NCBI GenBank assembly: GCA_017516485.1 | Contig: JAFXCH010000027.1 | Location: forward strand, 1 to 38,683 | Length of the DNA stretch: 38,683 nt | Source: Clostridia bacterium | Lineage (GTDB): Bacteria > Bacillota > Clostridia > Oscillospirales > Acutalibacteraceae | Direction of reading: 5' to 3' | In this document: positions 32,608-36,634 of the stretch, in pieces | Layout: every line of letters begins with the position of its first letter | Numbering within the stretch: the first letter of the stretch is position 1 | The notes under the pieces: model-generated | What the model saw: the letters and a program-made list of their open reading frames with translations, nothing else | Database searches by the model: none | What the model was told of the DNA's origin: nothing | Program-made: the position numbers and the translations under genes

Positions 32608-33525
32608 TTAGTTTTGCGATATATATTCTTCTGTAAAATGTGCCGCTACAGCACCGTCGGCGGCTGCCGTGATAACCTGCCGTAATGCTTTTGTGCGGAT
32701 ATCACCTGCGGCAAAAACTCCGTCGATATTTGTCTTAGTCGTTTCGTCTGCGATGATATATCCGTTGCTGTCAAGTGCAATTTCATTACCGAGAAAAGCA
32801 GTTGACGGCTGTCTGCCAATGCTTACGAATATACCGTCACATTCTATTTCTTTTGTTGTGCCGTCTTTGTTTAATATCTCAACGCCATTAACACCGTTGT
32901 TGTTGATGATTCTGTTGACAGTGCTGTTAAATACAAATTCTGTATTTTCGGCTTCGCTAAGGGGTTTTTGATAAATTTTTTCGGCACGCAGTGTGTCTCT
33001 GCGGTGTATAAGGTAAACTTTTTTTGCAAGCCTTGCAAGATACAGTGCATCCGCAACTGCGGAGTTGCCTCCGCCTATAACGGCTACGGTTTTGTCTTTG
33101 TAAAATCTGCCGTCACAGTGTGCGCAGTAATGCACACCCATACCCGTAAGCTCTTCTTCATCGGGAATACCGAGCTTTTTAGGGTGAGCACCTGCGGCTA
33201 TAATAACAGCCTTTGCGTGCAGCGTGCTGTCGTATGTTGTGATGTGCTTGATTTTTTCTGAAAAATCGACTTTGCTTATTTCGGTGTATTCGGTTTTTGC
33301 ACCGAATTTTTCAGCACCCTGCTGCATTTTCATACCTAAAGTGAAACCGTCAATACCTTCGTCAAATCCGGGATAGTTATCAATATCACCCGTCAATGTC
33401 ATCTGACCGCCGGGTGCCATTTTTTCTGTTATCAATGTGTCGAGACCTGCTCTTGCACAGTAGAGTGCTGCTGTATATCCTGCAGGACCACCGCCTATGA
33501 TAATTACATCATAAATATGCTCCAT
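32608..33525 (-). CDS. trxB: Thioredoxin reductase
   Basis: The 305-residue flavoenzyme passes electrons to thioredoxin. FAD site IIGGGPAGYTAALYCARAG, redox pair Cys134-Ala-His-Cys137 in HYCAHCDG (most TrxB have CATC), NADPH-side motif VIGGGNSAVADALYLA with HRRDTLRA, and the C-terminal GVFAAGDI. GAGAGGAG lies before the ATG. Its only promoter-like element is a TATAAT with a poor -35, preceded by the palindrome GTGAC-TCT-GTCAC centred 29 bases upstream of the -10, so transcription probably needs the adjacent Crp/Fnr-type activator. Confidence 0.95.
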   Translation of the reverse strand: MEHIYDVIIIGGGPAGYTAALYCARAGLDTLITEKMAPGGQMTLTGDIDNYPGFDEGIDGFTLGMKMQQGAEKFGAKTEYTEISKVDFSEKIKHITTYDSTLHAKAVIIAAGAHPKKLGIPDEEELTGMGVHYCAHCDGRFYKDKTVAVIGGGNSAVADALYLARLAKKVYLIHRRDTLRAEKIYQKPLSEAENTEFVFNSTVNRIINNNGVNGVEILNKDGTTKEIECDGIFVSIGRQPSTAFLGNEIALDSNGYIIADETTKTNIDGVFAAGDIRTKALRQVITAAADGAVAAHFTEEYISQN

Positions 33526-33554: not shown

Positions 33555-33595
33555 ATTATATCACTTTTGTCAACTTTTTTCTGTGACAGAGTCAC
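33555..33595 (-). promoter_or_regulatory. Activator-dependent trxB promoter with Crp/Fnr-type operator
   Basis: On the minus strand the palindrome GTGAC-TCT-GTCAC (33595-33583, centre 33589), then TATAAT at 33560-33555. The centre would be near -41 from the start of transcription, the class II activator position. The -35 region (CAGAAA) is far from consensus. Confidence 0.75.
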
Positions 33596-33599
33596 TTTG

Positions 33600-33628
33600 T
33601 TGACGGAATAAAAAAACGGTTGTATAAT
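33600..33628 (+). promoter_or_regulatory. sigmaA promoter of the Crp/Fnr-type gene
   Basis: TTGACG (33600-33605), 17-base spacer, TATAAT (33623-33628). The shared palindrome lies immediately upstream (33583-33595), 34 bases from centre to -10, so on a different face of the helix than at trxB. Confidence 0.82.
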
Positions 33629-33654
33629 TATGAAAAATAAAGGAGGCGGAATTT

Positions 33655-34329
33655 GTGGATAATAAAGGCTTTGAGTATGCTTATAAAACCTTGTTTCCTT
33701 TTTGGGATAAGATATCTGATGAAGATAAAGCGGCTGTATGTGAAAATACTGTTTCTGTAAGCTATGAAAAAGGTACGACTATTCACGACGGTAATGAGTG
33801 TATCGGTATGATTTTTGTACGCAGCGGCTGTCTGCGAGTATATATTATGTCAGACGATGGTAAAGATATAACCCTTTACAGACTTCATCCCGGTGAGATG
33901 TGTATGCTCGCCGCATCATGCGTACTTCAGAGTATTACTTTTGATGTTTTTATCGATGCTGAAGAAGACAGCGAGTGCTATGTTATCAACGGTTGTGCAC
34001 TTGCTCAGGTTAATGACAATAACCCTGATGTGAAGATTTTTATGCTGGAAATGGCAGTAAGCAGATTTTCAGACGTCATGTGGGTTATGCAGCAGATTCT
34101 GTTTATGAGTATGGATAAAAGACTTGCAATTTTCCTGTATGAAGAGTCTGCAAGAATTAATTCTGATACTATAAATTTAACTCACGAGCAGATTGCCAGG
34201 TATATCGGTTCTGCCCGTGAGGTTGTGTCGCGTATGCTTAAATATTTTTCAAACGAAGGTATTGTTGAGGTTTCACGCAAGGGTGTTAAAATTATTGATA
34301 AAAACCGCCTTAAAAAGTTAGCCTTCTAA
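33655..34329 (+). CDS. Crp/Fnr-family regulator, Cys-rich sensor domain
   Basis: 224 residues from a GTG start with AAAGGAGG 9 bases upstream. N-terminal cyclic-nucleotide-binding-type domain (about 10-125) with VRSGCLRVYIMSDDGKDITLYRLHPGEMC; C-terminal winged helix (about 165-220) with LTHEQIARYIGSAREVVSRMLKYFSNEGIVE. The cAMP-phosphate-binding loop is not conserved. Cysteines occur at 29, 49, 59, 83, 89, 108 and 114, all in the sensor half and none in the DNA-binding half. Placed between trxB and trxA, with matching operators at both, it is probably a redox-responsive activator of the thioredoxin system. Its last 12 bases overlap the end of trxA on the other strand. Confidence 0.9.
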   Translation: MDNKGFEYAYKTLFPFWDKISDEDKAAVCENTVSVSYEKGTTIHDGNECIGMIFVRSGCLRVYIMSDDGKDITLYRLHPGEMCMLAASCVLQSITFDVFIDAEEDSECYVINGCALAQVNDNNPDVKIFMLEMAVSRFSDVMWVMQQILFMSMDKRLAIFLYEESARINSDTINLTHEQIARYIGSAREVVSRMLKYFSNEGIVEVSRKGVKIIDKNRLKKLAF

Positions 34330-34626
34330 CAAGGCAAGTATCTGATGCTTGGGTTTGGCACCTGCGGATTTGTTGACAATTTTGCCGTTTTTTACAACTG
34401 CAAGCAGTGGTATGCTTGATACTCCGAACTGTGCGGCGAGCTCAGGTTCTTCGTCTACATTTACCTTGGCTACAAGGTATTGCGGGTTTTCTGCGGCGAT
34501 CTGTTCAACTATCGGGGATACCATACGGCAGGGGCCGCACCACTCTGCGTAGAAATCAAGGAGAACGGGTTTATCACTGTTGATGACGAGGTCAAAATTG
34601 TTTTTGTTTATTTTAAGTGCTGACAT
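34318..34626 (-). CDS. trxA: Thioredoxin
   Basis: The 102-residue protein reduces disulfides in the cytoplasm. Active site WCGPC with Cys30 and Cys33 in LLDFYAEWCGPCRMVSPIV, then KVNVDEEPELAAQFGVSSIPLLAVVKNGKIV with the cis-Pro. Usual length. Its promoter repeats the trxB arrangement exactly: palindrome GTGAC-TCA-GTCAC centred 29 bases upstream of TATAAT. Confidence 0.97.
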   Translation of the reverse strand: MSALKINKNNFDLVINSDKPVLLDFYAEWCGPCRMVSPIVEQIAAENPQYLVAKVNVDEEPELAAQFGVSSIPLLAVVKNGKIVNKSAGAKPKHQILALLEG

Positions 34627-34659
34627 TTTCTGTACATCCTTTCTTTATTTTGTAGCTTT

Positions 34660-34700
34660 ATTATATCCGTTTTTGCAGATTATTTCAGTGACTGAGTCAC
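34660..34700 (-). promoter_or_regulatory. Activator-dependent trxA promoter with Crp/Fnr-type operator
   Basis: On the minus strand GTGAC-TCA-GTCAC (34700-34688, centre 34694) and TATAAT at 34665-34660. Operator-to--10 distance is identical to that at trxB, and the operators differ at one central base. Weak -35 (CTGAAA). The operator is also upstream of the divergent metallophosphoesterase gene, where TATGAT at 34721-34726 could be a -10. Confidence 0.75.
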
Positions 34701-36105: not shown

Positions 36106-36120
36106 AAAACAGGTCAATCC

Positions 36121-36150
36121 CATATGTAAAGTTGACTAACTTTACATATG
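36121..36150. other. 13-bp perfect inverted repeat before the tyrosine phosphatase gene
   Basis: CATATGTAAAGTT-GACT-AACTTTACATATG. It lies 15 bases after the phosphoesterase stop and 22 before the phosphatase start. No T-run follows, so it is more likely an operator or an mRNA processing/stability hairpin than a terminator. Confidence 0.6.
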
Positions 36151-36172
36151 GTAAAGTGAAGAGGTATATAGG

Positions 36173-36634
36173 ATGATAAAAGTAATGTTTGTCTGCCACG
36201 GCAATATATGCCGCAGTCCGATGGCGGAGTTTGTTTTTAAAGATATGGTGCACAAAGCAGGCAGAGCAGATGAGTTTCTCATATCTTCGTCTGCAACGAG
36301 CATGGAGGAAATATGGAACGGCGTGGGTAACCCCGTTTATCCGCCTGCAAGAGATGAACTTAAAAAACACGGCATATCGTGCGAAGGTAAGCGAGCAGTG
36401 CAGATAAAAAAGAGTGATTATGACAAATACGATTATCTTATCTGTATGGATGAGAACAATATGCGTAATATTAAACGTATTATTCCTTCCGACCCTGAAG
36501 GTAAAATTGTAAAGCTGCTTAACTTTACGGGAGGAAACGGAAATGTTGCCGACCCGTGGTACAGCGGCGATTTTGGAACCTGCTACCGTGATGTATATAA
36601 CGGCTGCAAAGCGTTGTTTGAAAAGCTTATATAA
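36173..36634 (+). CDS. Low-molecular-weight protein-tyrosine phosphatase
   Basis: 153 residues with the P-loop VCHGNICRSP at the very start (Cys8 nucleophile, Arg14) and the general acid Asp127 in ADPWYSGDF. The DENNM near 93 and length are normal for the LMW-PTP family (YfkJ/Wzb type). Family members act on phosphotyrosine proteins, including capsule kinases and stress regulators; no tyrosine kinase or capsule gene is in the window, so the partner is unknown. It lies in the same direction as the phosphoesterase, 67 bases after it, with a perfect inverted repeat in between, so they may or may not share a transcript. Confidence 0.95.
   Translation: MIKVMFVCHGNICRSPMAEFVFKDMVHKAGRADEFLISSSATSMEEIWNGVGNPVYPPARDELKKHGISCEGKRAVQIKKSDYDKYDYLICMDENNMRNIKRIIPSDPEGKIVKLLNFTGGNGNVADPWYSGDFGTCYRDVYNGCKALFEKLI

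Follow-up and report, generated by a model that had tools for sequence, protein, structure and literature searches.

The window, by which we mean the whole 38,683-nucleotide stretch analyzed (contig JAFXCH010000027.1 of Clostridia bacterium assembly GCA_017516485.1), contains two thioredoxin genes on the minus strand with a regulatory gene on the plus strand between them. The first, trxB (32608..33525), is an open reading frame for a thioredoxin-disulfide reductase of 305 aa (NCBIfam TIGR01292, 378 bits against a cut-off of 343); the second, trxA (34318..34626), encodes a thioredoxin of 102 aa with the WCGPC motif (TIGR01068, 110 bits, cut-off 97). The intervening gene (33655..34329) begins with GTG and encodes a 224-aa protein of the Crp/Fnr superfamily, as judged from its reading frame, Pfam matches and fold match. 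The regulator gene and trxA converge, and their 3' ends, stop codons included, share 12 bases (34318-34329); closely similar end positions for the two genes are found in many of the 80 relatives described below.

Each trx gene is preceded by a 13-bp palindrome of the form GTGAC-N3-GTCAC, which on the minus strand reads GTGACTCTGTCAC at 33583..33595 (trxB) and GTGACTCAGTCAC at 34688..34700 (trxA). The arms are the same at the two sites, as the preliminary description had held, and the central three bases differ. Each palindrome is followed by a TATAAT -10 box, also on the minus strand (33555..33560 for trxB, 34660..34665 for trxA): the arrangement GTGACNNNGTCAC-N22-TATAAT spans 33555-33595 and 34660-34700, with a gap of exactly 22 bases in both promoters. 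A pattern match confirmed that in both promoters 29 bases separate the center base of the operator and the first T of TATAAT. If the -10 box is numbered -12 to -7 in the usual way, and the start site is predicted from it, both operators would be centered at approximately -41.

Both promoters had been described as lacking a good -35 box. This is true of trxB, where the hexamer at a 17-base spacer is CAGAAA (3/6 matches, by eye), but slightly overstated for trxA, where the equivalent position reads CTGAAA (4/6) and the promoter as a whole scores 10/12; given this 4/6 hexamer, some basal transcription of trxA is possible. One base of the palindrome falls within the -35 position. In a simple scan one of the two palindromes scores as a weak terminator-like hairpin. 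The trxB promoter (33555-33582) also contains a TTGACA, but with only 7 bases between it and TATAAT this hexamer cannot serve as a -35 box; it may deceive promoter finders.

The regulator has a promoter of its own on the plus strand (33600..33628; TTGACG-17-TATAAT, 11/12 matches by promoter score), and in the nearest relative (locus L016) its -35 box and most of its -10 box are kept. Being near consensus, this promoter is probably independent of an activator, such that the protein would be made constantly and switched by a signal. The trxB operator ends 4 bases upstream of the regulator's -35 box, so autoregulation is possible. Further along the window, at 36120-36151, two 14-base arms form a perfect inverted repeat around a 4-base loop, immediately before an ORF (36173-36634) that by eye encodes a low-molecular-weight phosphatase-like protein; this repeat is possibly the operator of another regulator.

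The preliminary description assigned the intervening gene to the Crp/Fnr type, and the profiles agree: the protein matches Pfam cNMP_binding (PF00027, 38.2 bits, cut-off 27.5) and HTH_Crp_2 (PF13545, 58.3 bits, cut-off 27), and is a Crp/Fnr superfamily member with a beta-roll and a Crp-type winged helix-turn-helix. The nearest solved relative is PDB 3dv8 (EUBREC_1222 of Eubacterium rectale), with a fold match at E 2.5e-25 and 42% identity; by sequence the match is E 1.6e-58, and three cysteines align with those of the regulator. An AlphaFold2 model of the protein has a mean pLDDT of 85. It is not CRP proper, scoring 49.7 bits on the NCBIfam CRP equivalog (cut-off 266), nor is it an FNR of the E. 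coli type (43.6 bits, cut-off 228). E. coli FNR carries an N-terminal cysteine cluster for [4Fe-4S]; the first 28 residues here contain no cysteine.

Six residues of the regulator stand out for their conservation. In an alignment of 118 rows (86 of them at least 60% identical and 32 less so, duplicates kept) Cys49 and Cys89 are present in all 118 and Cys83 in 117, while R188, E189 and R193, which we equated by eye with R180, E181 and R185 of Crp, are present in every row. All six residues are retained in 64/64 distinct regulators, down to 23% identity. The expectation that the recognition residues would be kept was thus borne out: R188, E189 and R193 are invariant in the regulators compared. 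Apart from the regulator, nothing in its genome matches PF00027 at E<=0.001. PF13545 has four matches there, two of them over the cut-off; that of the regulator is full length and by far the best, whereas the other (on contig C63) covers 31/70 positions in a 608-residue frame.

The occurrence of the palindrome was analyzed across this genome (2.17 Mb in 65 contigs, 90.7% complete). GTGACNNNGTCAC occurs at three places: the trxB site, the trxA site and one copy on contig C28, which lies inside a coding sequence (by eye, a V-type ATPase B subunit). A scan for the motif upstream of -10 boxes, proposed in the preliminary description, used the palindrome, a 22-base gap and TATAMT with up to three mismatches. 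It returned 27 places, and the only perfect promoter-coupled copies are those at trxA and trxB; the other 25 places have two or three mismatches. As a reversed-pattern control gave 29 places, these 25 weaker places are at control level, and the set in this genome looks like two promoters, so far as the assembly permits. With respect to promoters, therefore, the motif is not randomly placed in this genome.

For a comparison among relatives we took the best 80 of 370 loci encoding relatives of the regulator, counting TrxA hits of at least 50% identity and TrxB hits of at least 55% whose alignments start by residue 12. This gave 75 trxA genes in 74 of the 80 loci, each with at least 100 bases upstream. 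The palindrome is present with no more than one mismatch in 72 of these 75 trxA promoters from the best 80 of 370 loci, and is perfect in 46; the three trxA genes without it are the two of locus L063 and that of L027. Other arm spacers (0-2 and 4-8 bases) were found at between zero and two of the 75 promoters, and the 4-base spacer of the Crp type (GTGAC-N4-GTCAC, up to one mismatch) at none. The 3-base spacer, one base less than that of E. coli Crp as first described, is therefore the conserved form. The distance to the -10 box is similarly constrained: in 67 of the 72 sites the best TANNNT begins exactly 22 bases past the palindrome.

Aligned, the trxA promoters of the relatives give the consensus T-GTGAC-TTT-GTCAC-AGAAA, approximately 14 mostly A/T-rich bases and GGK-TATAMT; at -35 the sequence is CAGAAA, away from TTGACA. 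The likeness to TGTGA-N5-TCAC noted in the preliminary description is loose at the trxB site of the window, where an A precedes GTGAC, but 92% of the aligned relatives have a T there. The central three bases differ between species, as they do between the two sites of the window; a variable center between conserved arms fits an operator and would not be expected of copied DNA. L016, with a regulator 91-92% identical, retains the two operators and the two -10 boxes where parts of the flanks have diverged, and at its trxB operator the arms are kept and the center differs. The situation at trxB is otherwise: among the 80 loci the site precedes only 5 of 26 trxB genes, four times with a gap of 22 and once with a gap of 21, which means that the trxA/trxB pairing holds for the window genome and a few relatives and not for the whole group.

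We also asked how the promoter-coupled motif is distributed relative to the regulator in 391 genomes of the class, the window genome included. Of the 391 genomes, 29 contain the strict form, GTGACNNNGTCAC-N21-23-TATAMT, at 33 places in all, against three places for the reversed-pattern control (tallied by eye). A profile built from 26 regulators, with presence defined as E<=1e-20, places the regulator in 105 of the 391. The predicted link between motif and regulator held: 27 of the 29 motif genomes carry the regulator compared with 78 of the 362 others (Fisher p 6e-15, a value that ignores shared ancestry), and 18 of these 27 have both regulator and site on one contig, no more than 5 kb apart (places compared by eye). 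The two motif genomes without the regulator (G377 and G386) have no ORF downstream of the motif in the scan, and their matches look like chance.

A looser, promoter-coupled pattern (GTGAY-N3-RTCAC) was applied to 80 of the 105 regulator-bearing genomes; those left out were the window genome and 24 with mostly weaker regulator matches, three of which (G248, G269, G307) do carry strict sites. It was found at 79 places in 49 of the 80 genomes, against a single control place, and was absent from the other 31. A 4-base spacer, with one more gap width allowed (20-23), gave 8 places in 7 of the same 80 genomes. The canonical Crp/HcpR2 spacing was thus rejected both at trxA (0/75) and in these 80 genomes. 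An earlier family scan that did not require a -10 box matched 35 of 60 genomes, with counts near control in many.

The site does not follow the regulator everywhere. In a family sample of 19 regulator loci (L113-L131, with flanks of approximately 1.5 kb), 8 have a promoter-coupled site with up to one mismatch and 11 have none; among the 11 is L123, from a genome of the same genus (G018) in which the best homologue is only 42% identical. Similarly, 14 genomes of one family (f11) have a homologue at a profile E of about 1e-45 to 1e-50, and only three of these (G104, G132, G415) have strict sites, located upstream of ccdA-like genes. It is possible that f11 is a divergent sub-branch using another operator; more generally, the operators of more distant homologues may differ, or their sites may escape the -10 pattern, as in genome G388.

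In G388 there are two 4-base-spacer palindromes, GTGACTTAAGTCAC and GTGACTTAGGTCAC (at position 284 of locus L268 and in L264), 20-23 bases before TATAAT, with no evident redox gene downstream of either. The same genome has a 3-base-spacer site near the regulator, upstream of a gene for an Fe-S membrane protein but lacking a TATAMT at the gap expected. We considered, and rejected, the idea that the lineage has changed its spacer, since no evident redox genes lie behind the 4-base-spacer sites and a 3-base-spacer site is also present; the former perhaps belong to another Crp-type regulator.

What genes does the operator precede? We read 85 distinct promoter-coupled sites, including the two in the window, and labeled the downstream genes by short sequence motifs of our own choosing and not by profiles; representatives, some of them from the 80 best loci, were then checked with Pfam and NCBIfam. 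At 57 of the 85 sites the gene is labeled thiol/redox, Fe-S or the regulator itself, at 22 it is unlabeled and at 6 there is no ORF. The commonest labeled target is trxA (21), followed by CoA-disulfide-reductase-like genes (5), ccdA, AhpC-type peroxiredoxin and ferredoxin (4 each), and YeeE/YedE-like, trxB or trxB-like and rhodanese genes (3 each). The catalytic chain of ferredoxin-thioredoxin reductase, flavodiiron proteins and the regulator itself (L139, L140) account for two sites each, and rubrerythrin, Bcp (a bcp-type gene in L157), rubredoxin and desulfoferrodoxin for one each. We take these targets to serve in handling disulfides, peroxide, superoxide, oxygen and sulfane sulfur.

Profile checks identified rubrerythrin, DsbD_TM, OsmC, Pyr_redox_2, Sulf_transp, AhpC-TSA, C_GCAxxG_C_C, flavodiiron (ODP plus flavin reductase), desulfoferrodoxin, ferritin, rhodanese, Fer4, glutaredoxin, class V aminotransferase, rubredoxin, FeThRed_B and HMA proteins, as well as a CoADR-rhodanese-TusA-DsrE fusion; the CoA-disulfide-reductase match in L149 is a fragment and falls below the cut-off. 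About a third of the 22 unlabeled genes encode redox proteins, by Pfam or by eye: OsmC (L147), C_GCAxxG_C_C (L155, L241), glutaredoxin (L228), Fer4 (L240, L212/L220) and, by eye, a thioredoxin-domain fusion (L193). The others do not evidently do so, and targets with no obvious redox role, such as the DUF4332 proteins of L222 and L239, count against a purely redox reading of the regulon. The claim of a two-gene trx mini-regulon thus stands for the window genome, but elsewhere gives way to a wider thiol and oxidative-stress set.

A conserved small membrane protein containing 'YDYLW' (YDYLWIFSLTYLILGF...; 5005-5601 of L065, and in many relatives) often lies behind a 4Fe-4S ferredoxin gene under the operator. 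It has no Pfam match above cut-off, Fer4_5 appearing only below it, and is likely an uncharacterized operator target.

In five loci (L223, L224, L238, L262, L254) a single palindrome lies between two divergent promoters, with a -10 box at 21-23 bases on each side. In the first three the genes sharing it are trxA and an AhpC-type peroxiredoxin gene; in L254 an ORF follows on one side only. Both promoters could be served by one dimer, and a palindrome shared by divergent promoters fits an activator.

Class II activators of the Crp/Fnr type are centered near -41.5, at a fixed distance from the -10 box and overlapping a poor -35. The promoters described here have this geometry: a gap of 22 in 67 of 72 trxA sites and CAGAAA at the -35 position. 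The explanation that best accommodates the comparative evidence, and that we regard as very probable, is that the regulator is a class II activator of trxA and trxB acting through the 13-bp palindrome, and probably a cysteine-based sensor. As a dimer it would bind the palindrome at about -41, over the degenerate -35, and recruit RNA polymerase to both genes. The half-sites would be Crp-like, (T)GTGA(C), and read by R188, E189 and R193, the two lying one base closer together than in the classical Crp arrangement. The signal would most likely be read by Cys49, Cys83 and Cys89 in the effector domain, by way of a thiol/disulfide or sulfane-sulfur (persulfide) switch or of redox-active metal or Fe-S ligands, such that oxidative or disulfide stress would lead to higher thioredoxin capacity. 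Binding, dimerization, activation as opposed to repression and the kind of signal are all inferred from these patterns. The original proposal that the regulator switches on both trx genes from the class II position is nonetheless supported by the relatives, for trxB the more weakly (5/26).

The same palindrome could, in principle, be read as the site of a repressor that, bound at -41, blocks the -35 region until oxidation releases it and trxA and trxB come on. Derepression by oxidation is common among redox sensors; here the palindrome does overlap the -35 position by one base, and the trxA hexamer matches at four of six positions. A repressor, however, would not require such precise placement, and here 67 of 72 trxA sites and four of five trxB sites share a gap of 22: this near-fixed spacing is the main argument against repression. 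The drift of the aligned -35 position to CAGAAA, away from TTGACA, and the coincidence of the operator with the class II activation position point the same way, and we consider repression unlikely. Still more doubtful, to our minds very improbable, is that another transcription factor binds the palindrome and that the linked crp-like gene has different targets. The regulator's own promoter looks constitutive, and its binding to the palindrome is itself predicted from sequence; against this, motif and regulator co-occur in 27 of 29 genomes (18 of these 27 having the two on one contig, at most 5 kb apart), R188, E189 and R193 fit what Crp needs for recognition of GTGA, and there is but one PF00027 match in the genome. 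That the palindromes match by chance, or belong to hairpins or terminators, has next to no likelihood: one of them does score as a weak terminator-like hairpin, but 72 of 75 trxA sites are kept while centers and flanks vary, and the excess over control (33 against 3 places, 79 against 1) refutes the idea.

An alternative that touches only the sensory part of the scheme carries more weight. The conserved cysteines could hold an Fe-S cluster or heme, the signal being O2, NO or CO and the response one to O2 or NO; we treat this as a tentative but real possibility. Three conserved cysteines could ligate a cluster, and rubrerythrin, desulfoferrodoxin, flavodiiron and ferredoxin genes are among the targets. 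Other targets (CoA-disulfide-reductase-like, TusA/rhodanese, OsmC, glutaredoxin and peroxiredoxin genes) instead indicate thiol and sulfur chemistry. As for heme, PgRsp of Porphyromonas gingivalis, which its authors modelled on 3dv8, binds it, but changes at Cys76, Met78 and His85 are reported not to have revealed the heme ligand (PMC6955866). On balance we favor a cysteine-based sensor, be it a thiol or persulfide switch or a metal or Fe-S site, because thiol, oxygen and sulfur targets occur together with three conserved cysteines.

It appears, then, that a small DNA-binding protein of gut Clostridia switches on thiol-repair genes via a fixed 13-base operator. To our knowledge, oxygen and disulfide sensing in strictly anaerobic gut Clostridia is poorly understood outside C. 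difficile. The same operator stands before oxygen- and sulfur-stress genes of distant relatives, and the observation thus extends far past the window: with one conserved operator and regulator and a readable code, the stress regulon would become predictable in many uncultured species. The odd spacing, moreover, offers a clean way to ask how a dimer of the Crp fold accommodates half-sites rotated by approximately a tenth of a helical turn. We lean, if slightly, towards a broader proposal: that an undescribed branch of the Crp/Fnr family, with a Cys49/Cys83/Cys89 sensor and an operator one base short, is a main regulator, acting directly, of defenses concerned with thiols, sulfane sulfur and oxygen across Clostridia of the gut and beyond, acting through one fixed class II geometry, and that in the organism of the window its reach has shrunk to trxA and trxB.

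Among the matches listed from full-text searches of the open-access literature, none describes this operator or regulon, and their novelty is provisional. For Crp/Fnr regulators of sulfane sulfur, the open-access matches listed concern other regulator families or topics. One of the closest known systems is E. coli CRP, which shares the Crp fold, the R-E-x-x-x-R recognition residues and the GTGA half-site; class II CRP-dependent promoters likewise share an operator near -41 and a poor -35. The CRP operator is TGTGA-N6-TCACA, whereas the operator here is one base shorter, with N5 and not N6 between GTGA and TCAC, and by our alignment by eye the stretch corresponding to the cAMP-binding cassette holds CxxxxxC in the regulator. 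R180 and E181 correlate with bases of the recognition motif, as stated in PMC1274295. The same source describes HcpR2 of Clostridium, Bacteroides and Thermotogales, a Crp/Fnr protein that likewise regulates redox genes of anaerobes and has a palindromic site, but one with the consensus GTAACnnnnGTTAC, a 4-base spacer and proline at the Glu-181 position. The N3 spacer and the glutamate at 189 rule out HcpR2 as the identity of our regulator; the targets also differ, being trx genes here and, in what that source gives as the main ones, hcp and frdX there (PMC1274295).

Among Clostridia, trx genes are also under stress control in C. difficile, where sigma-B, sigma-A and sigma-G promoters and induction of some trx genes by O2 are reported; the word Crp is absent from the main text of that paper (PMC10880999). 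EUBREC_1222 (3dv8), 42% identical and with the three cysteines aligned, is known here only as a structure, and the only paper found for its codes in the open-access literature is that on PgRsp. PgRsp is reported to be a redox-linked Crp/Fnr protein, modelled on 3dv8, that binds heme and the bcp promoter; the words 'palindrom' and 'consensus' are absent from its main text (PMC6955866). P. gingivalis belongs to a different phylum, and the likeness is one of description and of the 3dv8 link. There the bcp promoter is bound and here a bcp-type gene stands behind the site (L157); PgRsp is the nearest functional parallel found.
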